This document shows, piece by piece, positions 40,927-56,590 of a stretch of DNA of 59,091 nucleotides. This DNA is from Acidimicrobiales bacterium. Lineage in GTDB: Bacteria > Actinomycetota > Acidimicrobiia > Acidimicrobiales > SHLQ01. The stretch spans positions 200,643 through 259,733 of the forward strand of contig JAHDEJ010000002.1 in assembly GCA_020628865.1 (NCBI GenBank), given 5' to 3'. The translations under genes were made by a program, and so were the position numbers. Position 1 is the stretch's first letter; each line of letters opens with the position of its first letter. The notes under the pieces were generated by a model. The model searched no databases. It was given only the letters and a program-made list of their open reading frames with translations, and was not told where the DNA came from.

Positions 40927-40942
40927 CTGGGAGCGCTCCCAG
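40927..40942. promoter_or_regulatory. CebR-type operator upstream of the sugar-oxidation operon
   Basis: CTGGGAGCGCTCCCAG is a perfect 16-base palindrome; its inner TGGGAGCGCTCCCA is the known CebR/CelR box of Streptomyces and Thermobifida. It lies 21 bases before the lactonase ATG, inside the 80-base gap after pgi. No strong -10/-35 pair was found nearby. The same core occurs twice at 55498-55521. Confidence 0.85.
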
Positions 40943-40963
40943 CCTGCTGGCGAAAGGCCCGAG

Positions 40964-42034
40964 ATGGATCGAACACTGTTGTTTGTCGGCGGATACACCC
41001 ACGACGACCGCCCCGGCGTCTCCCTGTTCGATGCGTCCGACCCGACCGGCGATATCGAGCTGCTGGGCACAGCCGGCGGTGTCGAACATCCGTCGTTCCT
41101 CGCCCTTCACCCGACGCTCCCTGTGCTCTACGCCGTCAGCGAGACCGACACGTTCGAAGGATCGCCCGGCGGCGGCCTCGTTGCCTATTGCGTGGACGCT
41201 GCAGCTGGCACGCTGGCCGAGATCGCCCGCACACCCAGCCTCGGCGTCGCACCGTGTCACGTGACGGTGAAGGCCGATGGTTCGGTGCTGTACGTGGCGA
41301 ACTACATGGGCGGATCAATGACCGCCATTTCGCTCGCGGCCGACGGCTCCTTTGGCGACCGATTGGCGCACCATCGCCACCTCGGTCACGGTCCGAGTCC
41401 ACGACAGGAAGCGCCGCACGCACACTGCGTGCGCCCCGGACCCGATGGTCGTTCCGTGTACGTGGCCGACCTCGGCACGGACGAGGTCATCCGCTATGAA
41501 CACACGACCGTCGACGACCTCGAGCGCTCATCGTCCTTCGGCTTCGCTCCGGGTGCCGGACCCCGACAGATCGCCTTCCATCCCACCCGGCCCCTGGCGA
41601 TCACGTTGTGCGAACTCGATTCCACGGCGGTGTTGTCGGCAGTCGACGGCTCGACCGGAGAGCTCACCCTGATCGAGACCCATTCCACGCTTCCTTGCGA
41701 TGCCAGCGGCGAATCGATCGCAGCCGACGTGCAATTCACGCCGGATGGCACACACGTGTACTGCAGCAATCGCGGGGATGACAGCATCGCCGCTTTTGCG
41801 GTCGGAGCCGGCGACCGGCTCGAGCCGTTGGGGCATGTGTCCAGCGGCGGCCGGACACCGCGCAGCATTCTCGTGCATCCAACAGGACGAAGCCTGCTCG
41901 TCGCCAACCAGGAGAGCGACAACATCGTCGTATTCGACCTGACGGGTGACCGAGGGTTGCCGCAGCGTTTGCTCGAATCGCGCCACTCCCCTGCCGCCCC
42001 CACCTGCCTGCTGACCCTGGTCGTGCCTTCATGA
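40964..42034 (+). CDS. Lactonase family beta-propeller protein (6-phosphogluconolactonase-like)
   Basis: A 356-residue seven-bladed beta-propeller of the Pgl/YbhE lactonase family. Repeated blades begin with HPSFLALHPTLPVLYAVSE, followed by PCHVTVKADGSVLYVANYMGG, PHAHCVRPGPDGRSVYVADLG and a final SILVHPTGRSLLVANQESD. It is predicted to open a sugar lactone to the acid in the cytoplasm. In this operon the likely substrate is the lactone made by the next gene's dehydrogenase, not necessarily a phosphorylated one. AAAGG before the ATG is the ribosome binding site. Its stop overlaps the next start by four bases. Confidence 0.85.
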   Translation: MDRTLLFVGGYTHDDRPGVSLFDASDPTGDIELLGTAGGVEHPSFLALHPTLPVLYAVSETDTFEGSPGGGLVAYCVDAAAGTLAEIARTPSLGVAPCHVTVKADGSVLYVANYMGGSMTAISLAADGSFGDRLAHHRHLGHGPSPRQEAPHAHCVRPGPDGRSVYVADLGTDEVIRYEHTTVDDLERSSSFGFAPGAGPRQIAFHPTRPLAITLCELDSTAVLSAVDGSTGELTLIETHSTLPCDASGESIAADVQFTPDGTHVYCSNRGDDSIAAFAVGAGDRLEPLGHVSSGGRTPRSILVHPTGRSLLVANQESDNIVVFDLTGDRGLPQRLLESRHSPAAPTCLLTLVVPS

Positions 42035-42873
42035 GTGTTCGCATCCTCGTGACCGGCGCTGCGGGTCGACTCGGCCGCGTCGTGGCCGCCCGATTCCACG
42101 AGCGCGGCCACGATGTCCTCGCCACCGACGTCGTCGATCACCCGAACACGCCCTATCGGTTCGAACAGGCCGACCTACTCGACCACGAGCGCACGCTCGA
42201 ACTCCTGGCCGACATCGACGTCGTGGCGCACATCGGCAACCTTCCCGGGATCGGACCGGCGCCCCCACAGACCGTGTTCAACCACAACGTGTCGATCAAT
42301 CAGAACGTCTTCCAGGGCGCAGCCGAACGTGGGGTCGAGCGGATCGTGTTCGCAAGCACGCTTCAACTGATCGGGTCGCACGTCGACGACCGGACCGTGA
42401 CGGTGGCGCCGAAGCCACCCCTCTTTCCCCTCTCGGGCTCGACCACGCCCGACCCGTCGAACGTCTATGCACTCTCGAAGACGGTCAGCGAGGTGATGTT
42501 GCGGTACTACGCCGAGCGTTGCGGCGTCCACGGAATCGCCCTCCGATTCCCGCTGCTGCATCACGATGAGGACCGCTACTTCGTCCGAGCCGGGGCCGAG
42601 ACCTCCATCGATGTGTTCGAGGGTTTCACCGGCCTCACCTACACGGACGCCGCCGATCTCTTTCTCGCCGTCGTCGATCGGGAACTCACCGGCTACCGAG
42701 TCTTCATGGCGGGCGCCGCACACCGCCACCTCGACCACACCGTTGCCGAACTGATCGAACGGTTCTACCCCGACACTCCATCCGACACAGATGACCTCAT
42801 CGACCTGACCGAGGTCACCGCCAGCACGGGGTGGACCCCGTCGCCCCGACCCACGAAGGACCACGACTCATGA
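42031..42873 (+). CDS. Extended SDR sugar dehydrogenase/epimerase-like protein
   Basis: A 280-residue NAD(P)-dependent extended short-chain dehydrogenase. The Rossmann motif is VTGAAGRLGR and the catalytic pair is YALSK; IVFAST precedes it. The pattern (VERIVFASTLQ, short C-terminal domain) is closer to uronate or aldose dehydrogenases of this family than to UDP-sugar epimerases. Flanked by a lactonase and a sugar-acid dehydratase, it probably oxidises an aldose or uronate to its lactone. Coupled on both sides by ATGA overlaps. Exact sugar is inferred only. Confidence 0.7.
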   Translation: MSVRILVTGAAGRLGRVVAARFHERGHDVLATDVVDHPNTPYRFEQADLLDHERTLELLADIDVVAHIGNLPGIGPAPPQTVFNHNVSINQNVFQGAAERGVERIVFASTLQLIGSHVDDRTVTVAPKPPLFPLSGSTTPDPSNVYALSKTVSEVMLRYYAERCGVHGIALRFPLLHHDEDRYFVRAGAETSIDVFEGFTGLTYTDAADLFLAVVDRELTGYRVFMAGAAHRHLDHTVAELIERFYPDTPSDTDDLIDLTEVTASTGWTPSPRPTKDHDS

Positions 42874-44075
42874 GCAGGCCGATCACGATCGAAGACGTTC
42901 GCGTCATCCTCACCCAACCCGGCTCCGCCCGCCTCGCGGTGGTGAAGGTCATCACGTCGGAGCCAGGACTTCACGGCGTCGGCTGCGCCACGTTCACCCA
43001 ACGCATCCACGCGGTGGCGGCAGCGATCGAGCACCACCTGAAGCCGTTCCTGCTCGGACGAGATGTCGCCCGGATCGAGGAAATCTGGCAGATGTCGATG
43101 GTCCACGGCTACTGGCGCAACGGCCCGGTGCTCAACAACGCCATCTCGGGCGTCGACCAGGCGCTGTGGGACATCAAGGGCAAACGGGCCAACATGCCGG
43201 TGTACGACCTGTTGGGCGGCAAGTGCCGAGAAGCCGCCAACGTCTACGTGCACGCTGACGGACCCACACCAAGCGACGTTGCCGATCGGGTCAAGAGCTC
43301 CATGGACGACGGCTACCGGTACGTACGAGTCCAGCAAGGCATGTACGGCGGCAACACCGAGACGTTCGTCCAGCCCGAAGGGGCGCCTCCGGGCGCCTAC
43401 TTCGACCCGAAGCGGTATCGCCGGGACACGCTGACCATGCTCGAGCATGTGCGGGCAGAGGTCGGCGACGACGTCGAACTGCTCCACGACGTACACGAGC
43501 GGCTGCACCCTGCCGACGCCATCTCGTTCGCCAAAGCGGTCGAACCGATCGGCCTCTACTTTCTCGAGGATCTCCTCGCTCCCGAAGACCTCGCATGGTT
43601 CGAGCGGGTTCGGGCCGCCTGCTCGACCCCGTTGGCCATGGGCGAACTCTTCAACCATCCGAGCGAATGGCAAACCGTCGCCGAGCAGAAACTCGTCGAC
43701 TTCCTCCGTATGCACGTCAGTCAGATGGGCGGCATCACACCAGCCCGGAAGGCCGCTGACCTCGCCCATCGACACGGCCTCCGCACCGCCTGGCACGGCC
43801 CCGCCGACACCTCGCCGGTTGGGCACGCCGCCAACCTCCACCTGGACCTGTGGGCCCCGGCGTTCGGGATCCAGGAGTGGTACCAGCCGAGCGACCTCGA
43901 CCGAACGGTGTTCCCCGGGTTGCCGGAGGTCCGAAACGGCTATCTGTACCCCAACGATGCACCCGGTCTGGGCATCGATGTGGACGAAGCGCTGGCCGCC
44001 GAATATCCCATCGTCGACGGTGTCGAGCAGTGGACACAGACCCGCTTGCCCGACGGTTCGCCCGTCCGCCCATGA
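42870..44075 (+). CDS. Enolase-superfamily sugar-acid dehydratase (ManD/RspA type)
   Basis: A 401-residue member of the mannonate dehydratase subgroup. Metal ligands are visible in ELLHDVHERL (Asp), FLEDLLAPED (Glu) and AMGELFNHP (Glu). The catalytic His is in TAWHGPADTSPVGHAANLHLDL, and FGIQEWYQ is the subgroup signature. Members dehydrate D-mannonate and/or D-gluconate to 2-keto-3-deoxygluconate. The following aldolase and kinase genes fit this product. ATG 42870 overlaps the previous TGA by four bases, which decides the start. Confidence 0.83.
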   Translation: MSRPITIEDVRVILTQPGSARLAVVKVITSEPGLHGVGCATFTQRIHAVAAAIEHHLKPFLLGRDVARIEEIWQMSMVHGYWRNGPVLNNAISGVDQALWDIKGKRANMPVYDLLGGKCREAANVYVHADGPTPSDVADRVKSSMDDGYRYVRVQQGMYGGNTETFVQPEGAPPGAYFDPKRYRRDTLTMLEHVRAEVGDDVELLHDVHERLHPADAISFAKAVEPIGLYFLEDLLAPEDLAWFERVRAACSTPLAMGELFNHPSEWQTVAEQKLVDFLRMHVSQMGGITPARKAADLAHRHGLRTAWHGPADTSPVGHAANLHLDLWAPAFGIQEWYQPSDLDRTVFPGLPEVRNGYLYPNDAPGLGIDVDEALAAEYPIVDGVEQWTQTRLPDGSPVRP

Positions 44076-44728
44076 GCTCCACACGATCGTCGGCTCGGTC
44101 CACGCTCGACATGATCCGTGACCTTGGCGTGGTGCCCGTCATCACCGTCGACGTTCCAACGGTCGCCGAGCCACTGGCCGACGCCCTCCAGCGTGGTGGC
44201 CTGCCCGTGGCCGAGATCACGCTGCGGACCGACGCCGGACTCGAGACCATCAGCCGCATCCGGGAGACGAACCCCGCCGTCCTCGTCGGTGCCGGCACGG
44301 TCTGCACGGCAGCCGAAGCCCACGCAGCCATCGAAGCTGGAGCCCGGTTTCTCGTGTCGCCCGGCCTGGACAAGCAGGTCGTCGACACGGCTCACGCCGC
44401 CGACGTTGCGATCCTGCCTGGCGTCGCCACCGCCACCGAACTCATGCGTGCACGCTCGATGGAACTGTCCGTCCTCAAGCTCTTCCCGGCGGAAGCCGTT
44501 GGGGGCATTCGCACGCTGGCCGCGTTCGCGTCCGTGTTTCCCGACGTCCGATTCGTCCCCACCGGCGGCATCTCTCCCACCACCGCCGCCGCCTACCTGC
44601 AACTCGGCTCGGTACTCGCTGTCGGCGGCTCGTGGATCGCTGATTCTGCAACGATCCGAGCCGGCGAATGGGCGGAGATCGAACAGCGCGCCCACAACGC
44701 TGTGCGGCTCGTGGAGACGTCTCGATGA
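44072..44728 (+). CDS. eda: 2-keto-3-deoxy-6-phosphogluconate aldolase
   Basis: A 218-residue class I aldolase splitting KDPG into pyruvate and glyceraldehyde 3-phosphate. The Schiff-base lysine is in VLKLFPAEAVGG and the proton-transfer glutamate in VAEITLRT; the phosphate site follows in FVPTGGIS. There is an ATGA overlap with both neighbours. Its substrate would come from the kinase encoded next. Confidence 0.9.
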   Translation: MSSTRSSARSTLDMIRDLGVVPVITVDVPTVAEPLADALQRGGLPVAEITLRTDAGLETISRIRETNPAVLVGAGTVCTAAEAHAAIEAGARFLVSPGLDKQVVDTAHAADVAILPGVATATELMRARSMELSVLKLFPAEAVGGIRTLAAFASVFPDVRFVPTGGISPTTAAAYLQLGSVLAVGGSWIADSATIRAGEWAEIEQRAHNAVRLVETSR

Positions 44729-45756
44729 CCACCGACCTTCGCCCTGCCGGCTCCTGCCGTTATGACGTGCTCACCCTCGGCGAGGTGATGCTGCGACTCG
44801 ACCCCAGCGACGACCGGGTCCGAACCACCCGTAGCTTCCGTGTGCATGAGGGAGGCGGCGAATACAACGTGGGTCGAGCGCTGCGGCGTTGCTTCGGACA
44901 TCGTGTGGCCCACGTGACCGCCATCGGCGACAACGAGGTCGGCCGTCTGCTCGAAGACCTGATGTTGCAGGGCGGTGTCAACCTCGACCATGTCGTCTGG
45001 AAGGAGGGCGACGAGATCGGCCGCACCAATCGCACACCGCTCAACTTCACCGAGCGGGGCTTCGGAGTTCGGGCAGCGCAAGGGGTGTACGACCGAGCCC
45101 ATTCAGCCACGTCCGGACTGACACCTGACGACGTCGACTGGGACGAGCTCTTTGGCGGGCTCGGCGTGCGATGGTTCCACACCGGAGGCATCTTCGCCGG
45201 CCTCTCCCCGTCCACGTTCGACACGGCCCGGACAGCCATCGATTCCGCACGACGCCACGGCACCATCGTCTCCTACGACATCAACTTCCGGCCGAGCCTG
45301 TGGGCCGCGGCCGGCGGCGCCGAGGCTGCGGCACAACGCAACGCGGAACTGTATGAGCGGGCCGATGTGGTGTTCGGACTGCCGGCGGCCCAGATCGAGG
45401 ATCGACCGTCGCTACCGGAGACGACCCGAGCACAGGCGGTCCTCGCGTCGCCTCGCCGGGTCGTGCACTCGGCGTCGGTGAACGACTGGGGAGGCCTTGC
45501 CTGGTCGCCGGCCGACGGCCTCCTCGAGGGCTCCACACACAACCGCATGCAGGTGTTCGACCGCGTCGGTGGCGGCGATGGATTCGCGGCTGGCTTCGTC
45601 CACGGACTCCTCGATGGATCGTCGATCACCCGCTCGCTCGAACTCGCTATCGCGCACGGCGCACTCGTGATGACAACGCCCGGTGACACGTCGTCGGCCA
45701 CTCGCCTGGAGGTCGAACGCCTGGCCGATGGCGGCGACTTCTCGGCCCGACGCTGA
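44725..45756 (+). CDS. kdgK: PfkB-family 2-keto-3-deoxygluconate kinase
   Basis: A 343-residue ribokinase-family kinase. The start TLGEVMLRLDPSD and the GGGEYNVGRALRR segment fit KDG kinases. The C-terminal signature DRVGGGDGFAAGFVHGLL holds the catalytic Asp, with Gly-Gly in place of the usual Gly-Ala. It would phosphorylate KDG to KDPG for the aldolase. It is the last gene of the operon and ends 18 bases from the convergent phosphorylase-like gene; no terminator hairpin fits in the gap. Confidence 0.82.
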   Translation: MTTDLRPAGSCRYDVLTLGEVMLRLDPSDDRVRTTRSFRVHEGGGEYNVGRALRRCFGHRVAHVTAIGDNEVGRLLEDLMLQGGVNLDHVVWKEGDEIGRTNRTPLNFTERGFGVRAAQGVYDRAHSATSGLTPDDVDWDELFGGLGVRWFHTGGIFAGLSPSTFDTARTAIDSARRHGTIVSYDINFRPSLWAAAGGAEAAAQRNAELYERADVVFGLPAAQIEDRPSLPETTRAQAVLASPRRVVHSASVNDWGGLAWSPADGLLEGSTHNRMQVFDRVGGGDGFAAGFVHGLLDGSSITRSLELAIAHGALVMTTPGDTSSATRLEVERLADGGDFSARR

Positions 45757-45774: not shown

Positions 45775-48700
45775 TTACCCGGGGATCTGCCACTCCACCC
45801 GTTGAATCTCGCCGGCGCGGGAGAACAGCGCCGCCGACTCCTCGACCGTGAGCGAATCGCCGCTGCGCGAGGTGACGCCTTCTGCCGTGACCACCGAAAC
45901 CTTCCGGTCCTGGCCCAGGCCAACGACCATGGGAACCCCACACAGCGTGAAACGGGCCTCCGGGGTGCTGTCCTGGAACCGGAAGAGTTCGTCGGCTGGC
46001 AACAGCTCTGGATGCAAATGCACCTGCCCCGCTCGGATACTCAGCCCAAGCTCGCCGAGACGGCTCAGCACCTCCTCCTTGACCTGACCGGTCATTCCCG
46101 GTTGCTGGGCGCCTGAGTGTGCCGGCGAGTGGGAGTAGCAGTCGACCGGAAAGGCCCCGAACACGGCTGGATCCTTGGTGAAGCCAAGGCCCACGCGGAT
46201 CCGGCGGTACGCCGCAGCGAGGCGTTCCACGTCGGCCGACCTGGCGTCGGCGTCGCGAGCATCCCAATAGACCTCCTGTACCGCGAGCAGGAGCTTCGAA
46301 ACCATGTGCCAGTAGATGGACCCGATGCCCTCGTAGCCGTACATGCTTCCGGAGCGCCCGGTGAACGACGCGTGCTGGAAGACCTGTTCGTAGACCTCCC
46401 GTATCGTGTTTCGGTCCTGCTCGGGCACATCGTCGGCGTCGAGCAGCCCAGCGAGTGCATCGGCGTTGGCAGCAGCTGGACGGAAGCGAAGGACACCGTT
46501 GCCGTCGCGAACGAACACGCTCGGCATGCTGAGCTCGATCGCGTCGGGCAGCGCCCCGTCGGGAACCCGGTTCCGTTCGCGGAACGGATCGATCTCTGCA
46601 ACCGGGTAGAGCATGAATGAATCGAGGTCGGCCCGAAACATTTCTGAGGCGTACAACGCATCGATTCTGCGCACGGCGTCGGCTGGGCTGAAGAGCCGAC
46701 AGGAAAGCGCTGCCACCTGGCCCTCGAGCATCGGCCCGAGCTGCTCCACCTCGAGTGTGGTGTCGGTGGGGAACGAGACGAGGTTGTACGAATCGACCAG
46801 TCCATCGGGACGAACCGAGGCCCGGATCGCCGCTTCGAGTGCGTCCACGGCCAGGTCCACGAACCCGAGGATCGAACTTGCCGGGAGGTCGACAAGCTCG
46901 GATCGAACGCCTGCCAGGACGCGCCGCCCCTGTGCATCTGCCGCAACGCCCAACGCATCGACGAGCGCTCGCCGCTCCCCGGCGTCCAACGACGCGGCAT
47001 CGTGACGGCGGTAGATCTCGATGAGGTCTCGGAGCCAAGCGGTTACGGCTGGGCTCAGACACACCGTGTCGCGCCCGGCGAGTACGCCTCGCAGGAACTC
47101 GAGGTACCGATGAAGGTGGAACACGGTCACCATCGACACGCCCGGTCCGGCAAGCGCATTGTTGGCGTCGTTCCACTCCGGCCGCTGCGTGTTCATCCAG
47201 ATGCCCGCACCGGGAATCAGGTTGCTCATCTTGGCCAGCGCCGGGACGAGCAACTTCTCACCCAGCCCGACCCGGAACAGATCACCGCCGGTGTCGACGA
47301 CGAGCCGCCCGTCACCACCGAGCTTCGCCTCCCGTTCCGCCACCGCCTCGGCTCGGTCGTGCAGGTAGGTGATGGTGTTGCGAGGGTCGGCGATCATCTG
47401 TGAACGGTCGCTGATGCGATAGGGCACGTCGGCATAGACGAACGCTGGCCGATCCAGCCAGCTGGCCAACGCTCCCGGTTCGAACCGCTCCCAGCCTTCG
47501 AGGAGTCGCAACAGGTAGATGATCTGGTGGTCGCCCCAATAGCCGATGTTTGCCCACGGATCGTGTGGGTCCGGCTCTTCCCAGTCCACACCTTCGCGGG
47601 AGATCCGATACGGGTTGTAGCCGTCGAGGGTGGATGCGTTCACAAACTTGGCAACGACGTGACCGAAGTAGGTGGGGTACGCGTGCAGCAGCGCTTCCCA
47701 GTTCTGAAAGATGTCCCGCCAGTTCCCTTCATAACGAAGAATCTCGCTGCCATCGTCATGAGTCACGTGAATCGAGAAGCGATTCCATGGCCGGCTCGGG
47801 TCACCGTGCCGACGCGAGAAGGTCAGCGGCAGGTACTCGAGCACCAGCCGTTCAAGATCGGGATCTCCGTCCTCGGCTGCACGAGCTCGTAGCGCGGCCG
47901 CTTCCATCCACTGGCCGCCGCCGGCCCAGTCTCGGACCCGAGGCGCGACCAACCGGTTGCGTTGCTCGACGAACTGGACGAAATCCGTCATCGGGATCCG
48001 CTGCTCGTAGGGGAAGACACCGCCACGCATCGAGTTGAACAGGACGTTCGAAAGGTGGTGTGCGTCTGCCATCGGGTCGCCGGTCCGCTGCTCGGCATCG
48101 GCACCACGTAGCAGCTCACGCAGTCGGGCCGAGCCGTCCTTGAGATCATCAAGGACACGGGCAGCGATTCCCGGCGTCGCCACCGCCGCCGCCATCGACT
48201 CGATGGCAGCGTGGTCGAGCGCGGTGTCCAACACGAAGTTCCAGGACGTGCGAGCACCGGGCTCGAGCACTACCCCTCCCCGCAGGAGGTAGGCCCCTGG
48301 CCGACCCGCGATCTTCCCTGTCGCGACGGCTGGCCGACCGTCGCCGAAGGCACGGACACTCCGCTGGTCGAGGTCGACCGATGCGCCATCGAAGCCCCAC
48401 GACCACACTGCGGCCGCGGTGAGCGACTCGCCCGGCTCGGCTCGATCGGTGATCAGCGATTCGAGGTTGTACACGGCGAGCCGCTCAGCGCGAGGCACGG
48501 TCTCCGAGCGCTTGAAGGCGTCGACGAGGTTCGAACGGGTCTGCTCGAGGCCGGCGTCGACGCCTGACGGCATGATGTCGAGCAATCCATCGAGGACGTC
48601 GAGCTCCACGTGCCCGCCATCGTTTTCCAACTCAACGGAGCGCACCCAACCATGTGCACGCGACGGGGCCCACGTCGCCCGGTAGGTCAGACCCCAGGTC

Positions 48701-49137
48701 GGGTTTCGTTCTTCGAAGACGATCCGGTCACCGAGCACGCTCTTGGCGAGCGAGCGCCGGCAGCCCTCGTCTCGCTCCCGACCGAACGGCCTCCAGAGCT
48801 CTCGTGCTCCGTTCACCGTGCGGGCGACCAGCGTCACGGGGCCCACCGAGCCGGTTGCTCGATGAATCTGGTCGTCGGTGACGTACGGGAACAATGCCCG
48901 ATCGGCGTCGACTCGCCCGGCGGTGAGGGACCCCGCGCTCGACACGAACATCCACAGGTCGACATCGGACACAACCGTGCTGAGAAAGGGCTCCATGGCG
49001 TCGACGTCGATGATCTCGTAGTGGTCGACTCCGTCGATCGATCGGAATCGCCCGGTGGCCTCTCGACGGCCAACCATGCGCTCCAGATCCGAGTCGGAGG
49101 TCTGCGCCATCGGGTCATGGTTCTGTGTGGACACCAT
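45775..49137 (-). CDS. Putative beta-1,3-glucan phosphorylase (GH94/GH149/GH161-like, 1,120 residues)
   Basis: A very long cytoplasmic protein without signal or membrane segment. It appears to have an N-terminal beta-sandwich region (about residues 25-320), a helical linker, a large (alpha/alpha)-type barrel (about 360-950) and a C-terminal beta domain. This is the layout of inverting glycoside phosphorylases. Conserved-looking barrel motifs are GGQWMEAAALRA, the run RYEGNWRDIFQNWEALL (D475 a candidate acid), DGYNPYRI, IGYWGDHQIIYLL and, later, GYEGIGSIYWHM. Length matches GH149/GH161 rather than 800-residue cellobiose phosphorylases. Context with GH16 and GH3 suggests beta-1,3-glucan oligomers cleaved to glucose 1-phosphate. 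ATG 49137 shares one base with the GH3 stop, and AAGGAG lies eight bases upstream. Family call is inference. Confidence 0.5.
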   Translation of the reverse strand: MVSTQNHDPMAQTSDSDLERMVGRREATGRFRSIDGVDHYEIIDVDAMEPFLSTVVSDVDLWMFVSSAGSLTAGRVDADRALFPYVTDDQIHRATGSVGPVTLVARTVNGARELWRPFGRERDEGCRRSLAKSVLGDRIVFEERNPTWGLTYRATWAPSRAHGWVRSVELENDGGHVELDVLDGLLDIMPSGVDAGLEQTRSNLVDAFKRSETVPRAERLAVYNLESLITDRAEPGESLTAAAVWSWGFDGASVDLDQRSVRAFGDGRPAVATGKIAGRPGAYLLRGGVVLEPGARTSWNFVLDTALDHAAIESMAAAVATPGIAARVLDDLKDGSARLRELLRGADAEQRTGDPMADAHHLSNVLFNSMRGGVFPYEQRIPMTDFVQFVEQRNRLVAPRVRDWAGGGQWMEAAALRARAAEDGDPDLERLVLEYLPLTFSRRHGDPSRPWNRFSIHVTHDDGSEILRYEGNWRDIFQNWEALLHAYPTYFGHVVAKFVNASTLDGYNPYRISREGVDWEEPDPHDPWANIGYWGDHQIIYLLRLLEGWERFEPGALASWLDRPAFVYADVPYRISDRSQMIADPRNTITYLHDRAEAVAEREAKLGGDGRLVVDTGGDLFRVGLGEKLLVPALAKMSNLIPGAGIWMNTQRPEWNDANNALAGPGVSMVTVFHLHRYLEFLRGVLAGRDTVCLSPAVTAWLRDLIEIYRRHDAASLDAGERRALVDALGVAADAQGRRVLAGVRSELVDLPASSILGFVDLAVDALEAAIRASVRPDGLVDSYNLVSFPTDTTLEVEQLGPMLEGQVAALSCRLFSPADAVRRIDALYASEMFRADLDSFMLYPVAEIDPFRERNRVPDGALPDAIELSMPSVFVRDGNGVLRFRPAAANADALAGLLDADDVPEQDRNTIREVYEQVFQHASFTGRSGSMYGYEGIGSIYWHMVSKLLLAVQEVYWDARDADARSADVERLAAAYRRIRVGLGFTKDPAVFGAFPVDCYSHSPAHSGAQQPGMTGQVKEEVLSRLGELGLSIRAGQVHLHPELLPADELFRFQDSTPEARFTLCGVPMVVGLGQDRKVSVVTAEGVTSRSGDSLTVEESAALFSRAGEIQRVEWQIPG

Positions 49138-50948
49138 CAACTCGTCTCCTTCGTCCGCCGGTGAGTAATCGTTCGACCGTGGCCGACCGGCCACGGTTCT
49201 GGTAGTTCGGTTGTGTGGTTGTCCCGCACCTGTTCCATGGTGTGTTGCCACCGAACGGGAAGACGGCCACCGACTTCGGCGAGGCCGGTCAATACGTCGC
49301 CAACGCCATCGGCTTCACTGCCGGGCAGCCACGCTGCCACGATGGCATCGGCGTCCTCGAGAATCGGCGCGAGCACGACCGGCCGCCCGGACACAACGAC
49401 CACGATGAGTCGGTCGACTCGAGCTCGAACCCGGCGAAACACCTCGACCTGATCGTCGGGCAGGTTCAGGTTCGCTCGGTCTCCTCCACCTTCCACGTAC
49501 GGGAACTCGTGCACGGCGACGACACCCACCGTTGCTCGTACCGACCCCGAACCGTCGGCGGTGTGCGGAATCGACGCGCCGAGGGCCGTGCGAAGCCCGT
49601 CGAGGATCGTCCGGCCGTCGGTAATGGGGCCGACGCCGCCATCCCAGGAGATGGTCCAGCCGCCGCACGAAAGCCCGATGTCGTCAAGCGCGACGCCTGC
49701 GGCAACAACGTCCTCGCCGGGCCGAATGGGCAGCGCTCCATCGTCCTTCAACACCACGGCGGACGCAACGACGGCCCGACGGGCGAGCGCCCGGTGCGCG
49801 GCGCAGCCAACGACATCCAGCGGCACCTCGTCGCCCTGACCTGAGAGGAGGCCGAGCCGATCCTTCGCGTGCAGGATCCGACGGACTGCGTCGTCGACGC
49901 GCTGCACACTGATGCGCCCCTCGACAACAAGGCGCTCCACCGTCTCGATGAAGCCTCGAAAGTCGAACGGCACCATCACCATGTCGACTCCGGCGTTGAT
50001 CGATCGCTCGACGGCAACCTCGAAGTCGGCATCGATCTGGTTGACCGCCATCCAATCCGAGACGACAAATCCGTCGAAGCCGAGTTCCCCCTTGAGCACA
50101 TTCGTCAACAACTGATGGTGGGCGTGGAGGGGTACGTGCCGCCAGGTCGCGTAACACGCCATCACCGTGGCGACGCCCGCCGCAACGGCGGCGGCGAATG
50201 GTGGAAGGTGGGTGGACCGCAGCGCAGCTTCATCGAGCGAGATGTTGCCCTGGTCGATCTGCCACTCTTCGCCCCAACCATCCCACCAGTCGATCCAGGG
50301 GTGGCGGGCCCTTCCGGCGCTCCCCCATTCCATGGCGCCCTCGCCGACGAAGTGCTTGGCGCAGGCAAGCACGCCGCTGGCTGGAAGATCGGTGCCCTGC
50401 CAACCGCGAACTGCGGCCGCGCCGAGCTCGCTCACCACCGATGGGTCCTCCGAGAACCCTTCGTACGTTCGACCCCAGCGCGGGTCCTGAGGTACGGCGA
50501 GACACGGGGCGAACGACCACCGAGCGCCGGTTGCTGCCGTTTCGAGCGCAGATGCGCGAGCGATCGCTTCGACGAGATGCGGATCCCGAGTCGCACCGAG
50601 GCCAATGTGGTGCGGGAAGATCGTGGCCCCGAGCACGTTGTTGTGGCCGTGGACAGCGTCGGTGCCGTAGACAATGGGAATCCCAAGCCGGCTTTGCAAC
50701 GAGCCCTCGACGTAGGCGTCCACCCCCGCCCGCCAGTCCGCTGCGCTGCCGTCGCCGTGGTTGCCGCCACCACCGCTGAGCACCGAGCCGATTGCCCACT
50801 CACCCACCTGGTCCGGCGTGATGCTGCCGAACTCGACCTGGGTCATCTGCCCGATCTTCTCCCGCAACGTCATCTGACCGAGGAGGCGGTCGACATCGCT
50901 TGGCGGGAAGCGATGATCGGACGTGGCGTCCGCTGATCTGCCGCTCAT
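49137..50948 (-). CDS. GH3 family beta-glucosidase
   Basis: A 603-residue glycoside hydrolase family 3 enzyme with no signal peptide, so it is predicted to be cytoplasmic. The N-terminal barrel has IPIVYGTDAVHG, PCLAVPQDPRWGRTYEGFSED and LACAKHFVGEG; the nucleophile is D298 in FDGFVVSDWM. The C-terminal alpha/beta domain with GGWTISWDGG follows, where the acid/base residue usually lies. There is no third fibronectin domain. It would release glucose from imported beta-gluco-oligosaccharides. It overlaps the GH16 stop by four bases and the phosphorylase-like start by one. GH3 members also cleave beta-1,3-linked glucose and xylose, so linkage is inferred from the neighbours. Confidence 0.9.
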   Translation of the reverse strand: MSGRSADATSDHRFPPSDVDRLLGQMTLREKIGQMTQVEFGSITPDQVGEWAIGSVLSGGGGNHGDGSAADWRAGVDAYVEGSLQSRLGIPIVYGTDAVHGHNNVLGATIFPHHIGLGATRDPHLVEAIARASALETAATGARWSFAPCLAVPQDPRWGRTYEGFSEDPSVVSELGAAAVRGWQGTDLPASGVLACAKHFVGEGAMEWGSAGRARHPWIDWWDGWGEEWQIDQGNISLDEAALRSTHLPPFAAAVAAGVATVMACYATWRHVPLHAHHQLLTNVLKGELGFDGFVVSDWMAVNQIDADFEVAVERSINAGVDMVMVPFDFRGFIETVERLVVEGRISVQRVDDAVRRILHAKDRLGLLSGQGDEVPLDVVGCAAHRALARRAVVASAVVLKDDGALPIRPGEDVVAAGVALDDIGLSCGGWTISWDGGVGPITDGRTILDGLRTALGASIPHTADGSGSVRATVGVVAVHEFPYVEGGGDRANLNLPDDQVEVFRRVRARVDRLIVVVVSGRPVVLAPILEDADAIVAAWLPGSEADGVGDVLTGLAEVGGRLPVRWQHTMEQVRDNHTTELPEPWPVGHGRTITHRRTKETS

Positions 50949-51916
50949 TCGCCATCGACCTCTTGATAGACGCGAACCCAATCGACGAGATACGGGATCG
51001 GATACTCGAGTTCGGTGTCGATGACGCCGCCGAGCGTACCGCCGAACGCCAGGTTGAGGATCAGGAAGAACGACTTGTCGAAGACCCACTCACGTCGACC
51101 GAGATTGTCGGGACCGACCTCGGCGTACATTTCTCCGTCGAAGTACCAGCGGATGCCAGACTCGTCCCAGTCGATTGCGTACGTGTGCCAGTCCTCGGAG
51201 ACATCGAAGTCCTGCCGGAACCAGGTCGACTTGCCGCCGGCGCCGGCGTAGCCCGGCCCGTGGATCGTTCCGAGAATGAGATCGGGTTCCTTCCCGGTGT
51301 ACTCCATGATGTCGATCTCGCCGACGAAGGGCCATCGGCGCTCCTGCTCGGCGGCCTCCTGCTCGAATCCGGATCCGAGCATCCAGAAGGCGGGCCAGGT
51401 TCCCTTCCCCGCCGGCACCTTGATGCGAGCTTCGATCCGGCCGTACTGGAATTCGCGCAGCCCTTTGGTCAGCAACCGGGCGCTGGTGTACGAGTTGCCT
51501 TCAAACGACTCCTGGTGCAGTTCGATGACGAGCAGACCGTTCTGGGTGCGGGCGTTCTTCTCCCGGTCGGTGTAGTACTGGGCCTCACCGTTGCCCCAAC
51601 CCCATCCTCCGATGTCGAAGGTCCAGTTGGTGCGGTCGATCTCGTCGCCATCGAACTCGTCGCTCCACACAAGCTCCATACCCTCCGGCGCAGCGGGCGG
51701 GATGGGTTCGGGGGCGACCACTGTGGTCGTTGTGGGCGCCACGGTCGTGGTTGTGGTCGTCGTGGATTCTGTCGTTGCGACGGCCGTCGACTCCTCGGGT
51801 GCGGTGGGCTCTACCGGCGCGCCTCCTTCGACGGCACCAGAGCCACACGCTGCCGCACTCAGCACGACGCCGAGCAGCGCGGCCACAGATCGGATGGACA
51901 GGGGGTGTGTTCGCAT
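50945..51916 (-). CDS. GH16 family beta-1,3-glucanase-like lipoprotein
   Basis: A 323-residue secreted lipoprotein. The lipobox is SAAAC (Cys24), then a Thr/Val/Pro-rich linker (about residues 40-75), then a jelly-roll GH16 domain. The catalytic set GEIDIMEYTG gives E200, D202 and E205; GNGEAQYYTD, WPAFWMLG and NLAFGGTLGG are typical of laminarinase-like members (GH16_3). It should cut beta-1,3 (or mixed-linkage) glucan outside the cell, anchored to the membrane. AGGAA lies about six bases before ATG 51916. It follows the permease genes in the same operon. Confidence 0.88.
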   Translation of the reverse strand: MRTHPLSIRSVAALLGVVLSAAACGSGAVEGGAPVEPTAPEESTAVATTESTTTTTTTVAPTTTTVVAPEPIPPAAPEGMELVWSDEFDGDEIDRTNWTFDIGGWGWGNGEAQYYTDREKNARTQNGLLVIELHQESFEGNSYTSARLLTKGLREFQYGRIEARIKVPAGKGTWPAFWMLGSGFEQEAAEQERRWPFVGEIDIMEYTGKEPDLILGTIHGPGYAGAGGKSTWFRQDFDVSEDWHTYAIDWDESGIRWYFDGEMYAEVGPDNLGRREWVFDKSFFLILNLAFGGTLGGVIDTELEYPIPYLVDWVRVYQEVDGE

Positions 51917-51962
51917 GATGGTTCCTGGATGGGCGGAGGATGAGACGTCGTTGTCGGCTGGC

Positions 51963-52898
51963 TCAGCCCTTGATGGCACCAGATGTCAGGCCCGAGATGA
52001 TGTAACGCTGAAGGAACATGTAGAGCACGAGCATCGGGAACATCAGCATCAGCACCGCCGCGGCGAGCTTTGGCCAGTCGCTGCCGTAGACCCCTTCGAA
52101 GACAAGGAGTCCGCGTGTGATCGGGTAGTTGTCCTCGCTCGTCAGGTAGATGGTGGCGAGAATGAGCTCGTTCCAGATGCCGATCGCGTGAATCACGATC
52201 ACGGTGGCAAGTGCCGGACGGATCAACGGCATCAGAATTGTGAAGACGAATCGGGCGTAGCCGCATCCGTCGACTGCCGCCGACTCGTCGAGCTCACGCG
52301 GAATCGACTTGATGTAGTTGACGAGGATGATCAATCCGATCGGATTCGTCAGGAAGAGCAGGATGTACCCGGTGCGGGTGTTGAACAATCCCTGCTGCTC
52401 GCTGCCCTCCGGCCAGAAGCTGAAGAGCACGTCGCCGATGACCGGGATGTCGCCGAAGTTCAGGATCAGCTGGAACTGGGGGATCAGGGCCGGTGGCAGG
52501 AACAGCGCCACGACGTAGAGGGTGAGCAACGGTCCGGCTCCCTTCACATACCCCCGGGCAATCGGGAAGGCGACGAAGACGGACATGACCACAAACAACG
52601 TCGTGGCCACCACCGTGTAGATCAGCGAGTTGAACAGGTACTGAGGGAAGTTTGCAAGATCCCACGCCTCGGTGAAGTTGTTGACCTCCAAACCCTCCGG
52701 AAGTCCGGTGGGGTCGCGGAAGAACTCGGGCAACGTCTTGAGCGACGCCATGACCAGCATCAGCAGCGGGCCGACGTAGAAGATCGCAAAGGCCACCAGG
52801 ATGGAGTACGAGACGATCTTCCTGCGGGCTCGCCGCTTGCCGGCGCCGAAGTCGTCGTGGACGACGACCTCGGGTTCAGAATGCGTCAGCACGCTCAT
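51963..52898 (-). CDS. Carbohydrate ABC transporter permease (MalG/CebG-like)
   Basis: A 311-residue permease with six membrane helices. The ATPase-contact EAA loop is ELDESAAVDGCGYARFVFTILMPLIRPAL. An N-terminal tail of about 30 residues precedes the first helix. ATG 52898 overlaps the partner permease stop by four bases. The ATPase (MsiK-type) is not in the operon, as is usual for actinobacterial sugar transporters that share one. Confidence 0.88.
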   Translation of the reverse strand: MSVLTHSEPEVVVHDDFGAGKRRARRKIVSYSILVAFAIFYVGPLLMLVMASLKTLPEFFRDPTGLPEGLEVNNFTEAWDLANFPQYLFNSLIYTVVATTLFVVMSVFVAFPIARGYVKGAGPLLTLYVVALFLPPALIPQFQLILNFGDIPVIGDVLFSFWPEGSEQQGLFNTRTGYILLFLTNPIGLIILVNYIKSIPRELDESAAVDGCGYARFVFTILMPLIRPALATVIVIHAIGIWNELILATIYLTSEDNYPITRGLLVFEGVYGSDWPKLAAAVLMLMFPMLVLYMFLQRYIISGLTSGAIKG

Positions 52899-53818
52899 CC
52901 GAGGTACTTCCTTTCCCGACGGGTCACGACAAAGTTGGCGGCCATTCCCAGGACGAGGACCAGCAGGAACAAGACGATGGACGCCGCGGCTGCGTAGCCC
53001 TGACGGAACGACGAGGTGCCCTGCTGACCAAAGCCTTCGGCGTAAACGACGTAGCCGAGCACCTTCGTGCTGTTCGTGAATCCGGTGAGCACGAGGAAGA
53101 GCATCCAGGCCTGCAGGGAACCGATGATGTTGAGAAGAAAGTTCGTGTTGACCGCCGGCGTGAGCTGCGGCCAGGTCACGTTTTTGAACAATTGCCACCC
53201 GGTGGCACCGTCCACGGCCGCTGCCTCATTGAGCTCGGCGGGGATCGTCTGCATCCCGGCGAGGAACACGACCATCGTGAACCCGGCATTCGCCCAGATT
53301 TGGACCAGGACCACCCAGTAGAAGGCGCTTGGCCCGGCGAGGAATTGTGACTCGAGCCCGAGCCATCCGTAGATGGTGTCCATTGGTCCGCCGCCCGGGC
53401 GAAGGAAGAGCTTCCACATCAGGCCTTGCACGACGGCACCGAGAATCACCGGCACGAAGAAGAGGGTTCGGAACACCAGGCTGCCCTTGAGACGCTGGTT
53501 GACCAGGATGGCCATCAGGAGTCCGACGCCGAACTGGAGGACGGTGACGAGCACCATGAAGAGCAGGGTCCGTTGCACCGCGTCGAGGTTGTCTCGCGAT
53601 CGGGCGCCCTCGAATGCGAACTCGTTGTAGTTGTCGAAGCCGACCCAGTTGATCGGAAGCCCCCGCAAACCGGTGGCGTCGGTGAACGAGTAAAAGGCCG
53701 TGGCGATCGACGGGCCCACCGCCATCACGAGGTAGAAGCCGACGCCGGGAGCCAGGAGAAGCCACGGAATGAACCGGCGGCGGCCGGCGCCGAAGAGTGT
53801 TCGTTGCTGCGCAGTCAC
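52895..53818 (-). CDS. Carbohydrate ABC transporter permease (MalF/CebF-like)
   Basis: A 307-residue permease with six membrane helices and the EAA loop ELNEAAAVDGATGWQLFKNVTWPQLTPAV. It starts at GTG 53818 with GGGGGA a few bases upstream. It pairs with the MalG-like permease and the binding protein to import oligosaccharides. It lies after a long hairpin that separates it from the binding-protein gene. Confidence 0.88.
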   Translation of the reverse strand: MTAQQRTLFGAGRRRFIPWLLLAPGVGFYLVMAVGPSIATAFYSFTDATGLRGLPINWVGFDNYNEFAFEGARSRDNLDAVQRTLLFMVLVTVLQFGVGLLMAILVNQRLKGSLVFRTLFFVPVILGAVVQGLMWKLFLRPGGGPMDTIYGWLGLESQFLAGPSAFYWVVLVQIWANAGFTMVVFLAGMQTIPAELNEAAAVDGATGWQLFKNVTWPQLTPAVNTNFLLNIIGSLQAWMLFLVLTGFTNSTKVLGYVVYAEGFGQQGTSSFRQGYAAAASIVLFLLVLVLGMAANFVVTRRERKYLG

Positions 53819-53864
53819 AAGATCCCCCTGGTCCTCGTGTCGGTCGTGCAGAGAATTGGCGGCG

Positions 53865-53902
53865 TGCGGGCGGGTTGGCCCCGGAGGATCAACCCACCCG
53901 CA
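53865..53902 (-). terminator. Long hairpin between the sugar-binding protein gene and the permease genes
   Basis: TGCGGGCGGGTTG (53865-53877) pairs with CAACCCACCCGCA (53890-53902) with one mismatch, and GGCGG/CCGCC extends the stem. There is no T-run. It is likely an attenuator or stabiliser that favours binding-protein expression. Confidence 0.55.
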
Positions 53903-53916
53903 TCCGCCGGAGGGGA

Positions 53917-55359
53917 CTAGCCGCCGAGACCAGCCTCAAAATCGGCTTGCGCCTGGTCAGCGGCTTCCGCCGCATCGGCGAAGTCACCGTTGTAGAACCA
54001 GAGCGCACCCTGACCGGCGTTGGCCCACTGACCGGCGCCGGCGGGACCGATGAACCACTGCTCGTAGCCGACGGTGAAAGCACCTTCCTGCAGCAGCGGA
54101 GCAACTGCACGGCCGAGCGTGTTGTCGAGCGTGGCAGTCGGCTGCGTCGGGAGGAAGTTCACCGTGTTGGCGAAGTCGTTGTAGGTGTCGGGGTCCGAGA
54201 ACGCCGCGAGGTACGCCATGGCCAGGTCCTCTACCGGGGTACCCTCGGCAACTGCCCAACCCTGGTCGTACTTGCCGAACAGGATCTGGTTGTCGGCAGC
54301 GTTGTCGCTACCTGGGAATGGGATGTAGGTCCACTCGAACTCTGCCGGGGTCAGATCGGAGTCGGCGGCCGGTTCCATGACGCCGGCCTGCCAGTTGCCG
54401 GTCGGGGCGAAGGCGACGTCGCCAGCCTTGTAGCGTTCGATCGCGGCATCGTGACCGAGGCCGGCGGCCTGGTCCTCGAGCATCTCGTTGGCGTAGACCT
54501 CGTAGCGCTCGAACAGCTTTTGCCCCTGCTCGTCGTTCCATGCGGCCTCACCGGTCCAGAGACCCTCGACCAGGCCCTCCTGGTCCGGATAGAGCGAACC
54601 CAGCAGGCCGTAGGCGCCAACGAAGATCGGCCAGCCGTCGGCGCCGCCGGCGGTCATGCACTCGTAGCCGGCACCCTTGACGGTGTCGCAGGCTGCGACG
54701 AGTTCGCCCCAGGTCGTCGGAACGTCCACGCCGACCTCACCCAGGAGGTCGAGGTTGACGAACATGCCGCTGTAGGACACGCGGCCGAGGTTGAGCGAGT
54801 AGACGCCGCCGTCGTAGGAGCCGCCTTCCGCAATCGCGGCGTCGTCGTAGTTGCCGACAAAGTCCTGGCCGCTGAGATCCATCAGAAGACCGGCGTCGAT
54901 GAGCTGCTGCCAGTACGGTGGCTCGACGTCGGTCATGTACGGCTGCACCGGGTTGGCGAAACCGGTGACGGTGACCGTGGTGACGTCGACGTCGCCAGCC
55001 GAGAGACGCGTCTGGTTTGCGGTCGGCAGGTCGGCGGCGTCGATCACCGACAGATCGATGGTCACGCCGGGGTTGGCGGCTTCGAAGTCTGCGTTGAAGC
55101 TCTCGACCCACTCGACCATCGGCGGGTTCTGGTGGATCATGACGCGAAGCGTGCCTTCGAGGCCGGCCGCAGCCTCGGCAGTGTCGGTGTCGCCATCATC
55201 GCTCGACGAGCTGTCGTCGGACGCGGATTCGGTGGCCTCGGTGTCGGTGCTGCCGGCATCGCCGTCGGCATCGTCGGTGCTGGCGTCGCTGCCGCAGGCC
55301 GCGGCGACGAGCGCCAGTACGGCCAGCAGGAGCATCAGCTTCCTGAACGTGTGCTGCAT
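53917..55359 (-). CDS. Sugar-binding lipoprotein of the carbohydrate ABC transporter (CebE-like)
   Basis: A 480-residue family 1 extracellular solute-binding lipoprotein. A basic start and hydrophobic core end in the lipobox VAAAC (Cys22), followed by an Asp/Ser/Thr-rich acidic linker to about residue 65. The mature domain begins LEGTLRVMIHQNPP. Later features include VPTTWGELVAACDTVK and VAFAPTGNWQAGVME, usual for oligosaccharide-binding proteins. AGGGGAC before the ATG is the ribosome binding site. It is the first gene of the beta-glucan operon, about 130 bases downstream of the operator pair. Confidence 0.9.
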   Translation of the reverse strand: MQHTFRKLMLLLAVLALVAAACGSDASTDDADGDAGSTDTEATESASDDSSSSDDGDTDTAEAAAGLEGTLRVMIHQNPPMVEWVESFNADFEAANPGVTIDLSVIDAADLPTANQTRLSAGDVDVTTVTVTGFANPVQPYMTDVEPPYWQQLIDAGLLMDLSGQDFVGNYDDAAIAEGGSYDGGVYSLNLGRVSYSGMFVNLDLLGEVGVDVPTTWGELVAACDTVKGAGYECMTAGGADGWPIFVGAYGLLGSLYPDQEGLVEGLWTGEAAWNDEQGQKLFERYEVYANEMLEDQAAGLGHDAAIERYKAGDVAFAPTGNWQAGVMEPAADSDLTPAEFEWTYIPFPGSDNAADNQILFGKYDQGWAVAEGTPVEDLAMAYLAAFSDPDTYNDFANTVNFLPTQPTATLDNTLGRAVAPLLQEGAFTVGYEQWFIGPAGAGQWANAGQGALWFYNGDFADAAEAADQAQADFEAGLGG

Positions 55360-55388
55360 GGTTGTGGTGTCCCCTCCATAGGTGACCG

Positions 55389-55412
55389 TTCGACGTTCCC
55401 CGGAGCGTCGAA
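55389..55412 (-). other. Hairpin in the 5' leader of the sugar-binding protein mRNA
   Basis: TTCGACG (55389-55395) and CGTCGAA (55406-55412) pair around a ten-base loop in the leader, 30 bases before the start. It may stabilise the mRNA. Confidence 0.4.
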
Positions 55413-55497
55413 GTGGGCTGGACTCGTGGCCGACGCAGGATCGATTGGCGAACCGCCATCTCCCCTGAGTCGAGCCAATGCCCGCCGGTTAGTTTCT

Positions 55498-55521
55498 GGG
55501 AGCGCTCCCGGGAGCGCTCCC
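55498..55521. promoter_or_regulatory. Two abutting CebR-type operators at the beta-glucan operon promoter
   Basis: GGGAGCGCTCCC occurs twice with no gap (55498-55509 and 55510-55521). The first is flanked on one side by CT as in the full CebR box. They lie directly downstream of the -10 hexamer, over the expected transcription start, so bound repressor would block RNA polymerase. Confidence 0.85.
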
Positions 55522-55524
55522 GCG

Positions 55525-55554
55525 AATATACCCAGAAGTGAAATCCGGGGTCAA
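55525..55554 (-). promoter_or_regulatory. Core promoter of the beta-glucan operon
   Basis: On the reverse strand TTGACC (55554-55549), an 18-base spacer and TATATT (55530-55525) form the best sigma-70-type promoter in the window. It begins 11 bases after the LacI-family gene's end and reads into the sugar-binding protein gene. Confidence 0.75.
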
Positions 55555-55564
55555 GGGGTTTCGT

Positions 55565-56590
55565 TCAGGCCCGCTCCCGCAAGGCTCCGCAGGACTCGTT
55601 CACATCGAGTCGAGTAGGAAGCACCGTCAGGTGCGGTGCGTCGGCGTCGCCCATCAGCACCGCAACAGCGGCCTGCCCGACGTCAGACACGGGTTGCACG
55701 ACCGTGGTGAGCCGGGGGATGGTGAGCGGCGCACGTGGAAGTCCATCGAACCCGACGATCGCGACGTCTTCGGGCACACGCAACCCCCGCGCATCGAGAA
55801 CCTCGAGAACACCAATTGCCATCGTGTCGGTCGCAACATAGATCGCGTCCGGAGCCTCGGCCAACAACACCTCGGCTGCCGCCCGGCCTCCATCGGCCGT
55901 CGGTTCGGCCGTGTGGACCAACCGCTCCTCCACGGCTCGGCCGCCGGCCTCGATCGCGTCCCGGTACCCCTCACAACGTTCGGCACCGAAGACGTACTCA
56001 TCGGTCGGGCCGATGTAGGCCACGCTGCGGCGCCCGCGGTCCATCAGGTGACGGGTGGCCGTGGCGCTGCCGACACGATTGTCGACGTCGACACGCATCA
56101 GCCCTTCGTCATCGGCCGGGTGCCCGATGACGACCAGCCGGGAGCCTCGCGCCCGAAGATCGGCGATGAGCCCTTCACTGCGCGGACCAGCGGTGACGAT
56201 CACGCCATCGACGAAACCCTGCGCGAGCTGACGGGTGAGGAGGTTGGCATGGCTCCCCGTACCCAACACGGGAAAGATCGAGAAGACCAGCCCATGCTCC
56301 AGGCAGCCTTGTTGGATGCCGTGCACCAGCGCTGAGTAGTACGGATCGCCGAACAGTTCTTCTGCATCGGTCAGGATGACCAATCCAACCAGCCCACTCC
56401 TATTCGAAACGAGCGCCCGAGCGGCCTGATTCGGCATGTAGCCGGTCTCGGCGATGACCGCCTCGACCTTCTCGCGCACCTCTGGCCGCACGTCGGGGCG
56501 CTCGTTGAGCACGCGCGACACCGTTGAGCGGGACACCCCCGCCCGACGTCCGATCTCTTCGAGCGTGAGGTTCTTCGACCCACTGGCCAT
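55565..56590 (-). CDS. LacI-family repressor, probable CebR-type regulator of the beta-glucan locus
   Basis: A 341-residue repressor. The N-terminal helix-turn-helix and hinge are clear (LEEIGRRAGVSRSTVSRVLNE, then NQAARALVSNRSGLVG). A periplasmic-binding-like ligand domain follows, with DPYYSALVHGIQQ and IVGFDGLPRAPLTIPRLTTV. ATG 56590 has TATTCT six bases upstream; longer readings lack similarity. The gene ends 11 bases before the operon promoter. The operators at 40927 and 55498 match boxes bound by actinobacterial CebR/CelR proteins, so it is the obvious candidate; ligand release by a beta-glucan disaccharide is inferred. No operator is seen before its own start. Confidence 0.83.
   Translation of the reverse strand: MASGSKNLTLEEIGRRAGVSRSTVSRVLNERPDVRPEVREKVEAVIAETGYMPNQAARALVSNRSGLVGLVILTDAEELFGDPYYSALVHGIQQGCLEHGLVFSIFPVLGTGSHANLLTRQLAQGFVDGVIVTAGPRSEGLIADLRARGSRLVVIGHPADDEGLMRVDVDNRVGSATATRHLMDRGRRSVAYIGPTDEYVFGAERCEGYRDAIEAGGRAVEERLVHTAEPTADGGRAAAEVLLAEAPDAIYVATDTMAIGVLEVLDARGLRVPEDVAIVGFDGLPRAPLTIPRLTTVVQPVSDVGQAAVAVLMGDADAPHLTVLPTRLDVNESCGALRERA

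Follow-up and report, generated by a model that had tools for sequence, protein, structure and literature searches.

We analysed a 59,091-nucleotide stretch of the genome of an Acidimicrobiales bacterium (contig JAHDEJ010000002.1, positions 200,643 to 259,733; hereafter the window, numbered from its first letter), in which two convergent operons with a common operator-like box lie beside a LacI-family regulator gene. Operon A comprises five genes on the plus strand (40964–45756) and operon B six genes on the minus strand (55359–45775), their stop codons 18 bp apart. An earlier sequence-only reading of this DNA had described two convergent operons under a common box with a LacI gene alongside, an arrangement confirmed here; it had spoken of ten genes, where we count eleven plus the LacI gene. 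Adjacent genes of operon A overlap by 4 bases at every junction. They encode, in order, a seven-bladed beta-propeller lactonase, proposed as a gluconolactonase (40964–42034; PF10282, 295.8 bits, cut-off 21.7); an extended short-chain dehydrogenase/reductase (SDR) of the NAD-epimerase family, proposed as a glucose 1-dehydrogenase (42031–42873; top NCBIfam model the Azf NAD-dependent glucose-6-phosphate dehydrogenase, at 74 bits far under its cut-off of 400); an enolase-superfamily sugar-acid dehydratase of the ManD subgroup, proposed as a D-gluconate dehydratase (42870–44075; ATG at 42870, searches run from 42873); a 2-keto-3-deoxy-6-phosphogluconate (KDPG)/2-keto-4-hydroxyglutarate aldolase, Eda (44072–44728; TIGR01182, 223 bits, cut-off 156); and a PfkB-family kinase, proposed as a 2-keto-3-deoxygluconate (KDG) kinase (44725–45756).

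Operon B begins with a putative ATP-binding cassette (ABC) solute-binding lipoprotein (53917–55359), assigned by its lipobox (seen by eye), its position and homologues of 54–59% identity that stand beside permeases in relatives; a Pfam scan of this protein returned no match of its own, which counts against the assignment. Two ABC sugar permeases follow (52895–53818, PF00528; and 51963–52898, MalG-like by family-model match), with no ATPase gene beside them. The remaining genes encode a laminarinase-type GH16 lipoprotein (50945–51916; lipobox SAAAC, seen by eye, and catalytic motif EIDIME), a GH3 beta-glucosidase recognised by family match, in which no signal peptide was seen by eye (49137–50948; ATG at 50948, searches run from 50951), and a GH149 beta-1,3-glucan phosphorylase of 1120 residues (45775–49137). 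The LacI-family regulator gene, identified by a family-model match, lies upstream of operon B on the same strand (55565–56590; recognition helix GVSRSTVSRV).

The exact 12-bp core of the box, GGGAGCGCTCCC, occurs at 40929–40940, 55498–55509 and 55510–55521. Box A has the 14-bp form TGGGAGCGCTCCCA without mismatch (40928–40941) and ends 22 bp 5' of the first ATG of operon A; the other two cores abut each other between the LacI gene and operon B (boxes B1 and B2, 55498–55521; 1 and 2 mismatches to the 14-bp form), 138 bp 5' of the solute-binding lipoprotein gene and 43 bp past the LacI stop. When positions 55360–55620 were scanned for promoters, a single site was found, a sigma-70-type TTGACC-18-TATATT on the minus strand (55525–55554), compared with 0.0 in shuffled sequence. 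The tandem boxes start 3 bp after its −10 element and thus cover the expected transcription start, as would suit a repressor. In the whole genome (5.36 Mb, 113 contigs) the exact core was present four times and its reversed control not at all. Base composition alone predicts ~2.4 exact 12-mers and 0.07 exact 14-mers, against four and two found; since the 12-mer count is unremarkable by itself, the evidence lies mainly in where the sites are. All four cores stand ahead of operons or genes for beta-1,3-glucan use, three at the locus and one on another contig, C97, where a perfect 14-mer lies 19 bp before the initial ATG of a 1789-residue open frame whose beginning is signal-like; its last 1770 residues, which were scanned, contain CBM11, Calx-beta and GH16 domains. 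Relaxed matching added little: the window alone held 9 boxes at two mismatches (9.3 expected, no excess) and little excess at three, and the genome 29 sites at up to two mismatches, not far above the 18 of the reversed control, from which we draw no conclusion.

What the sequence-only reading had called a giant phosphorylase-like protein can now be named, since it exceeds the curated cut-off of the NCBIfam model for GH149 1,3-beta-D-glucan phosphorylase (NF058639, 1211 bits, cut-off 1150, residues 26–1118). Its best solved relative is a GH149 enzyme (PDB 6hq6, E 3e-258), and the catalytic WND loop, RD donor motif and phosphate histidine named for this structure in the accessible part of PMC6771811 are present as W655-N656-D657, R474-D475 and H944, invariant across 12 aligned sequences. 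It is the single GH149 match in the genome. The GH16 lipoprotein of operon B has laminarinases as its nearest solved proteins (best PDB 3azx), and the GH3 protein scores best with a model for exo-beta-1,3/1,6-glucosidase, under the model cut-off. Because the GH149 protein passes a curated cut-off and keeps the active-site motifs, beta-1,3-glucan is well supported as the predicted substrate of the locus, and the protein is predicted to phosphorolyse beta-1,3-gluco-oligosaccharides; the earlier suggestion that GH16 and GH3 together fit laminarin is strengthened by the GH149 assignment. The accompanying statement that no cellulase is present holds for the locus genes, among which family scans found neither a cellulase nor a cellobiose phosphorylase. 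Elsewhere in the genome there is one GH5-family protein (contig C54, no box listed), and a GH6 search, which matched in no control genome either, gave nothing; GH9, GH48 and GH94 were not searched there.

Next, the distribution of these genes and of the box was examined in 296 genomes of the class, a check that the sequence-only reading had itself suggested. GH149 was found in 22 genomes, 20 of them solid (the partial matches in G026 and G125, 36–38 bits, were dropped for the smaller count), the exact 14-mer box in 13 and its reversed control in 6. Ten of the 13 box genomes carry GH149 (Fisher p 4e-11 with 20 GH149 genomes, 1.3e-10 with all 22), p-values that serve only as a guide because the genomes are mutually related. 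Of 15 exact sites in the class, 11 are in GH149 genomes, at genes for beta-glucan use or sugar transport; two of the other four are in G193 and one each in G110 and G060, and at the latter two no neighbour matched a window protein. In 20 GH149 neighbourhoods totalling 298 kb, drawn from 18 of the 20 GH149 genomes (G109 and the window's own genome were left out), a search allowing one mismatch gave 18 boxes, spread over 9 of the stretches; five shuffles gave none. The package of box, GH149 and dehydratase is not universal in the class. One exact box, in G243 (L100, 1054–1067), lies between a gene for a UgpC/MalK-like ABC ATPase and a GH3 gene and suggests a possible regulated source of the ATPase absent beside these transporters.

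Two of these genomes gave further observations. In G193, one exact box lies between a LacI gene (helix GVSRGTVSRV) and a GH42 beta-galactosidase gene (L096, 9435–9448) and another ahead of an ABC sugar operon (L095, 7138–7151), so that the same operator apparently serves another sugar there in the same gene order. In G278 (L076), the GH149 match is split in two pieces near its start, by a frameshift or an assembly error.

The recognition helix of the window LacI was shared by all 12 LacIs aligned from glucan loci of the class and by none of the 4 other LacIs found in its own genome; the four GH149-linked LacIs from outside the class have GVSRSTASR. Some results weigh against a beta-1,3-glucan regulon under this LacI. 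The window helix is also present in 5 of 6 box-linked LacIs without GH149, which indicates that it marks the operator and not the sugar; the helix differs in L065, a LacI encoded near GH149 in G284 and kept out of the alignment; 10 of the 20 GH149 genomes have no exact box, some of them having one-mismatch boxes and several of the contigs being short; and promoter scans around box A and the C97 box gave no match. Could the regulator be a true CebR/CelR orthologue that still responds to cellobiose, the beta-1,3-glucan genes having been added to a cellobiose regulon? We consider this improbable, although the window operator is identical to the CebR box given in the accessible text of PMC4898821, a Nocardiopsis dassonvillei endo-beta-1,3-glucanase was suggested in 2012 to be under CelR-type control (PMC3377646, from the portion available), and CebR-like LacIs of Streptomyces-like genomes are 37–38% identical to the window protein, little under the 38–45% of GH149-linked LacIs. 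The CebR-like helices (GVGRGTVSRV or GVGRGTASRV) differ from that of the window at two positions, and the locus is devoid of cellulase and cellobiose phosphorylase genes. In a tree of 30 rows, which has a long window branch, weak deep forks and no named CebR, the window protein groups with eight GH149-linked LacIs of the class (support 89/90) and falls outside a separate CebR-like clade (99/95), labelled by gene context in Streptomyces-like genomes; two more GH149-linked groups stand apart (L063, a partial protein, L065, L118, L130 and L253 were among those left out of the helix alignment and the tree). Put cautiously, window LacI and CebR have an operator in common, but orthology between them is not supported by these sequences. 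The proposal of a re-used cellobiose regulator is thus only partly supported, and the shared operator may reflect an older LacI specificity, not a borrowed CebR. We regard it as highly improbable that the convergent operons are independent neighbours with a common box by coincidence. By chance, a GC-rich 12-bp palindrome should turn up about twice in 5.36 Mb, and the reversed control does recur in the class sample. Yet each of the four genomic cores precedes an operon or gene for beta-1,3-glucan use, dehydratase and GH149 tend to be present in the same class genomes, whether or not on one contig, and shuffling removed every one of the boxes in the GH149 neighbourhoods.

The semi-phosphorylative Entner-Doudoroff pathway has been described in archaea, and all five of its enzyme families (dehydrogenase, lactonase, dehydratase, KDG kinase and KDPG aldolase) are present here as one operon, operon A. 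It differs from the archaeal route in being bacterial and boxed with beta-1,3-glucan genes, in having a dehydratase of the ManD subgroup and, as far as the window is concerned, in having an SDR that is Azf-like. The claim that the locus has its own downstream catabolism is supported, now with a candidate pathway. The five-family complement was also found in G046, G270 and G294, the last with the same five enzyme families as the window. At E ≤1e-60 the dehydratase occurred in 9 of the 296 class genomes, 7 of which also have GH149 (Fisher p 7e-8). In 8 of the 9, a GH16 gene and window-related ABC permeases surround it; six genomes have them immediately next to it, the window and G294 at distances of up to ~15 kb. 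The ninth genome, G126, is one of the two without GH149 and has an enzyme of 40% identity with ABC permeases (27–28% identity) ~5 kb off, and its 20-kb stretch gave no GH16, GH3 or GH149 match. In the six genomes G030, G046, G198, G257, G270 and G278, the dehydratase gene is immediately followed by one for a classical SDR, which replaces the window's SDR family; these SDRs are 65–71% identical to the G046 copy, and the two that were scanned (G046 and G030) scored 227 and 231 bits with NF005559 (cut-off 215), a model named glucose 1-dehydrogenase, the name being broad. Three of them (G030, G046 and G270) also encode a lactonase of the SMP-30/gluconolactonase family, with PF08450 confirmed in G046 and G030, and G046 and G270 a KDPG aldolase and a kinase as well. 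In G152, aldolase and kinase genes lie beside GH149 without a dehydratase match. A route from sugar through lactone and aldonate to KDG and KDPG is argued for most strongly by the fact that other families fill the same two slots next to this dehydratase; given the beta-glucan operon, the sugar is most likely glucose. Operon A is best read as a candidate semi-phosphorylative Entner-Doudoroff route from glucose to gluconate, KDG and KDPG, with glucose, gluconolactone and gluconate as the proposed substrates of the SDR, lactonase and dehydratase, and KDG as that of the kinase.

This assignment has points against it. The window SDR, dehydratase and kinase all score below the cut-offs of named models; the dehydratase is under those of every NCBIfam model listed, its best being D-mannonate dehydratase (NF043051, 375.5 bits, cut-off 550), and the SDR is only distant kin of any characterised enzyme, uronate dehydrogenases included. 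Predicted structures of the dehydratase and the SDR were poor (predicted local distance difference test, pLDDT, ~50). PDB entries 3t6c and 3tw9 are gluconate-linked. Further, 13 of the 20 GH149 genomes lack a ManD-type dehydratase at E 1e-60, and the oxidative route is an optional addition to the GH149 package. The window's own genome has four ROK-family matches, one partial, so that ordinary glucose phosphorylation may exist; the notion that the oxidative route is needed for want of a glucokinase was dropped in view of these matches. Operon A might instead serve mannonate, galactonate or a uronate and be merely co-regulated, for example if mannitol or alginate arrived with laminarin from the same alga. 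The top match of the dehydratase and the distant kinship of the SDR to uronate dehydrogenases would fit such an origin, which we hold to be possible but unlikely: the D-mannonate dehydratase model is broadly named, neither a uronate isomerase nor a mannonate oxidoreductase was found among the locus genes, the kinase and KDPG aldolase pair suits an aldonate, and the relatives have an SDR of the family named glucose 1-dehydrogenase, in three of them with the SMP-30/gluconolactonase-family lactonase in the GH16 cluster.

Taken together, the locus is probably a laminarin-type beta-1,3-glucan utilization regulon under a LacI repressor, with glucose oxidation coupled to it. Starting from the gene families, the GH149 active-site motifs, the box positions, the one promoter match and the conserved associations seen in the sequences, we infer repression, an inducer, the cell location of the enzymes and their substrates as follows. 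The LacI repressor would sit on the TGGGAGCGCTCCCA boxes, at or close to the promoters of the two operons and the C97 GH16/CBM11 gene, until freed by beta-1,3-gluco-oligosaccharides or laminaribiose. Extracellular GH16 enzymes would cleave the glucan, and the solute-binding lipoprotein and two permeases would take up the oligosaccharides, with an ATPase borrowed from elsewhere in the genome. Inside the cell, GH149 would phosphorolyse the chain to glucose 1-phosphate, and GH3 together with the final GH149 step would yield free glucose. This glucose would be oxidised unphosphorylated, by the SDR to gluconolactone and by the lactonase to gluconate, which the dehydratase would convert to KDG; the PfkB kinase would phosphorylate KDG to KDPG, and the aldolase would split KDPG into pyruvate and glyceraldehyde 3-phosphate. 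For the class as a whole we lean slightly towards a laminarin regulon in which glucose 1-phosphate enters the ordinary phosphorylated route and free glucose a co-induced semi-phosphorylative Entner-Doudoroff operon, the dehydrogenase and the lactonase each having been recruited repeatedly from different families, and in which a LacI lineage distinct from CebR controls everything through the classical cellulose operator. As the first oxidative steps are replaced by other families in relatives, the glucose-to-gluconate reading is directly testable, and for members of the class the locus predicts both a substrate and the complete path of its catabolism.

The association of box and GH149 was followed beyond the class. 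Of 396 genomes sampled across the phylum, 7 had a solid GH149 match (G026, G420 and G507 were dropped), 26 the exact box and 5 both. Outside the window's own class, the box is present in three of five genomes with GH149 (hypergeometric p 0.002). In these three, G592, G600 and G608, the box, a LacI gene (39–41% identity) and GH149 are all on one contig; in the other two, G375 and G410, the GH149 contigs are 3.4 and 8.9 kb long and have no box. Two counts weaken the association at this level: the reversed control occurs in 15 of the 396 genomes, compared with 26 for the exact box, and 10 of those 26 belong to one genus (g171; 11 genomes of 6.1–9.9 Mb), whose 10 box-bearing genomes have 1–10 exact boxes and in which GH149 is absent throughout. 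Among 16 stretches fetched from four g171 genomes, three from different genomes (L263, L265 and L269) have a LacI gene, box and permeases in series; the g171 genomes look like those of Streptomyces, in which case this would be the published cellulose use of the box. Eighty named GH149 loci were also inspected, the first-listed match to the window protein being from a metagenome-assembled genome (MAG; 58% identity) of the Ilumatobacteraceae, a family of the Acidimicrobiia, which agrees with the class named in the sequence-only reading. Boxes with at most one mismatch were present in two of them, a Nitriliruptoraceae MAG (L125) and L126, which is apparently the same contig as one in a class genome (G046:C30); the dehydratase was found in L126 only, within at most 10 kb per side and often less. 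The 76 loci of other groups (1.44 Mb; the 80 minus L124, L125, L126 and L130, of which L124 and L130 are also without the box) had none at up to one mismatch; they come from genomes of mostly lower G+C, in which the box is rarer by itself.

GH149 genes beside ABC transporter and LacI genes were reported from Proteobacteria in 2018 (PMC5827456). According to the accessible part of that report, the type I clusters share with our locus GH149, an ABC transporter and a regulator of LacI type (or AraC type), and are read as serving beta-1,3-glucan use; their ABC proteins belong to COG0747/0601/1173 and come with ATPases of their own, unlike the MalG-like permeases without an ATPase gene found here, and that part mentions neither a CebR-type box nor an oxidative route, both of which are found here. 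Clusters with GH161/GH94 beta-1,3-glucan phosphorylases (PMC6484121) resemble the locus in that a phosphorylase is accompanied by a beta-glucosidase, by GH16 and by ABC permeases that lack an ATPase, and differ in the phosphorylase family; an oxidative route is unmentioned in the portion accessible. CebR/CelR regulons of Actinobacteria have the same 14-bp operator and a LacI-family regulator beside an ABC sugar transporter, and in the accessible text (PMC4898821, PMC3377646) their targets are mainly cellulases and cellobiose genes, as opposed to GH149, GH16, GH3 and an oxidative operon. We did not find the present combination described in the literature searched, including PMC5827456, PMC6484121, PMC6771811, PMC10811738 and PMC12503162, consisting mostly of titles and abstract beginnings with few subscription journals, and the matches listed included nothing on laminarin use or glucose processing by Actinomycetota of this class. 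The operator, the host group and the coupled oxidative route of this GH149 cluster look new. Among marine glycans, the accessible part of PMC10811738 calls laminarin the most abundant. The number of CebR boxes per genome has been used to predict cellulose degradation (PMC4898821, as far as its accessible text goes), a use that calls for caution here, as the box in this class mostly marks beta-1,3-glucan genomes.

The flanks of the locus contain further genes. A phosphoglucose isomerase gene on the plus strand (39267–40883) ends 44 bp ahead of box A and provides a sugar context outside the boxed operon. Popeye domains are best known from animals; just 5' of the LacI gene, on the minus strand (56644–57393), a small membrane protein is encoded that combines a Popeye-like (POPDC1-3) region with a cyclic-nucleotide-binding domain. 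Close to the contig end, also on the minus strand (57434–58786), lies the gene for a beta-propeller protein with a long stretch rich in threonine towards the N-terminus and a lactonase-type propeller match.

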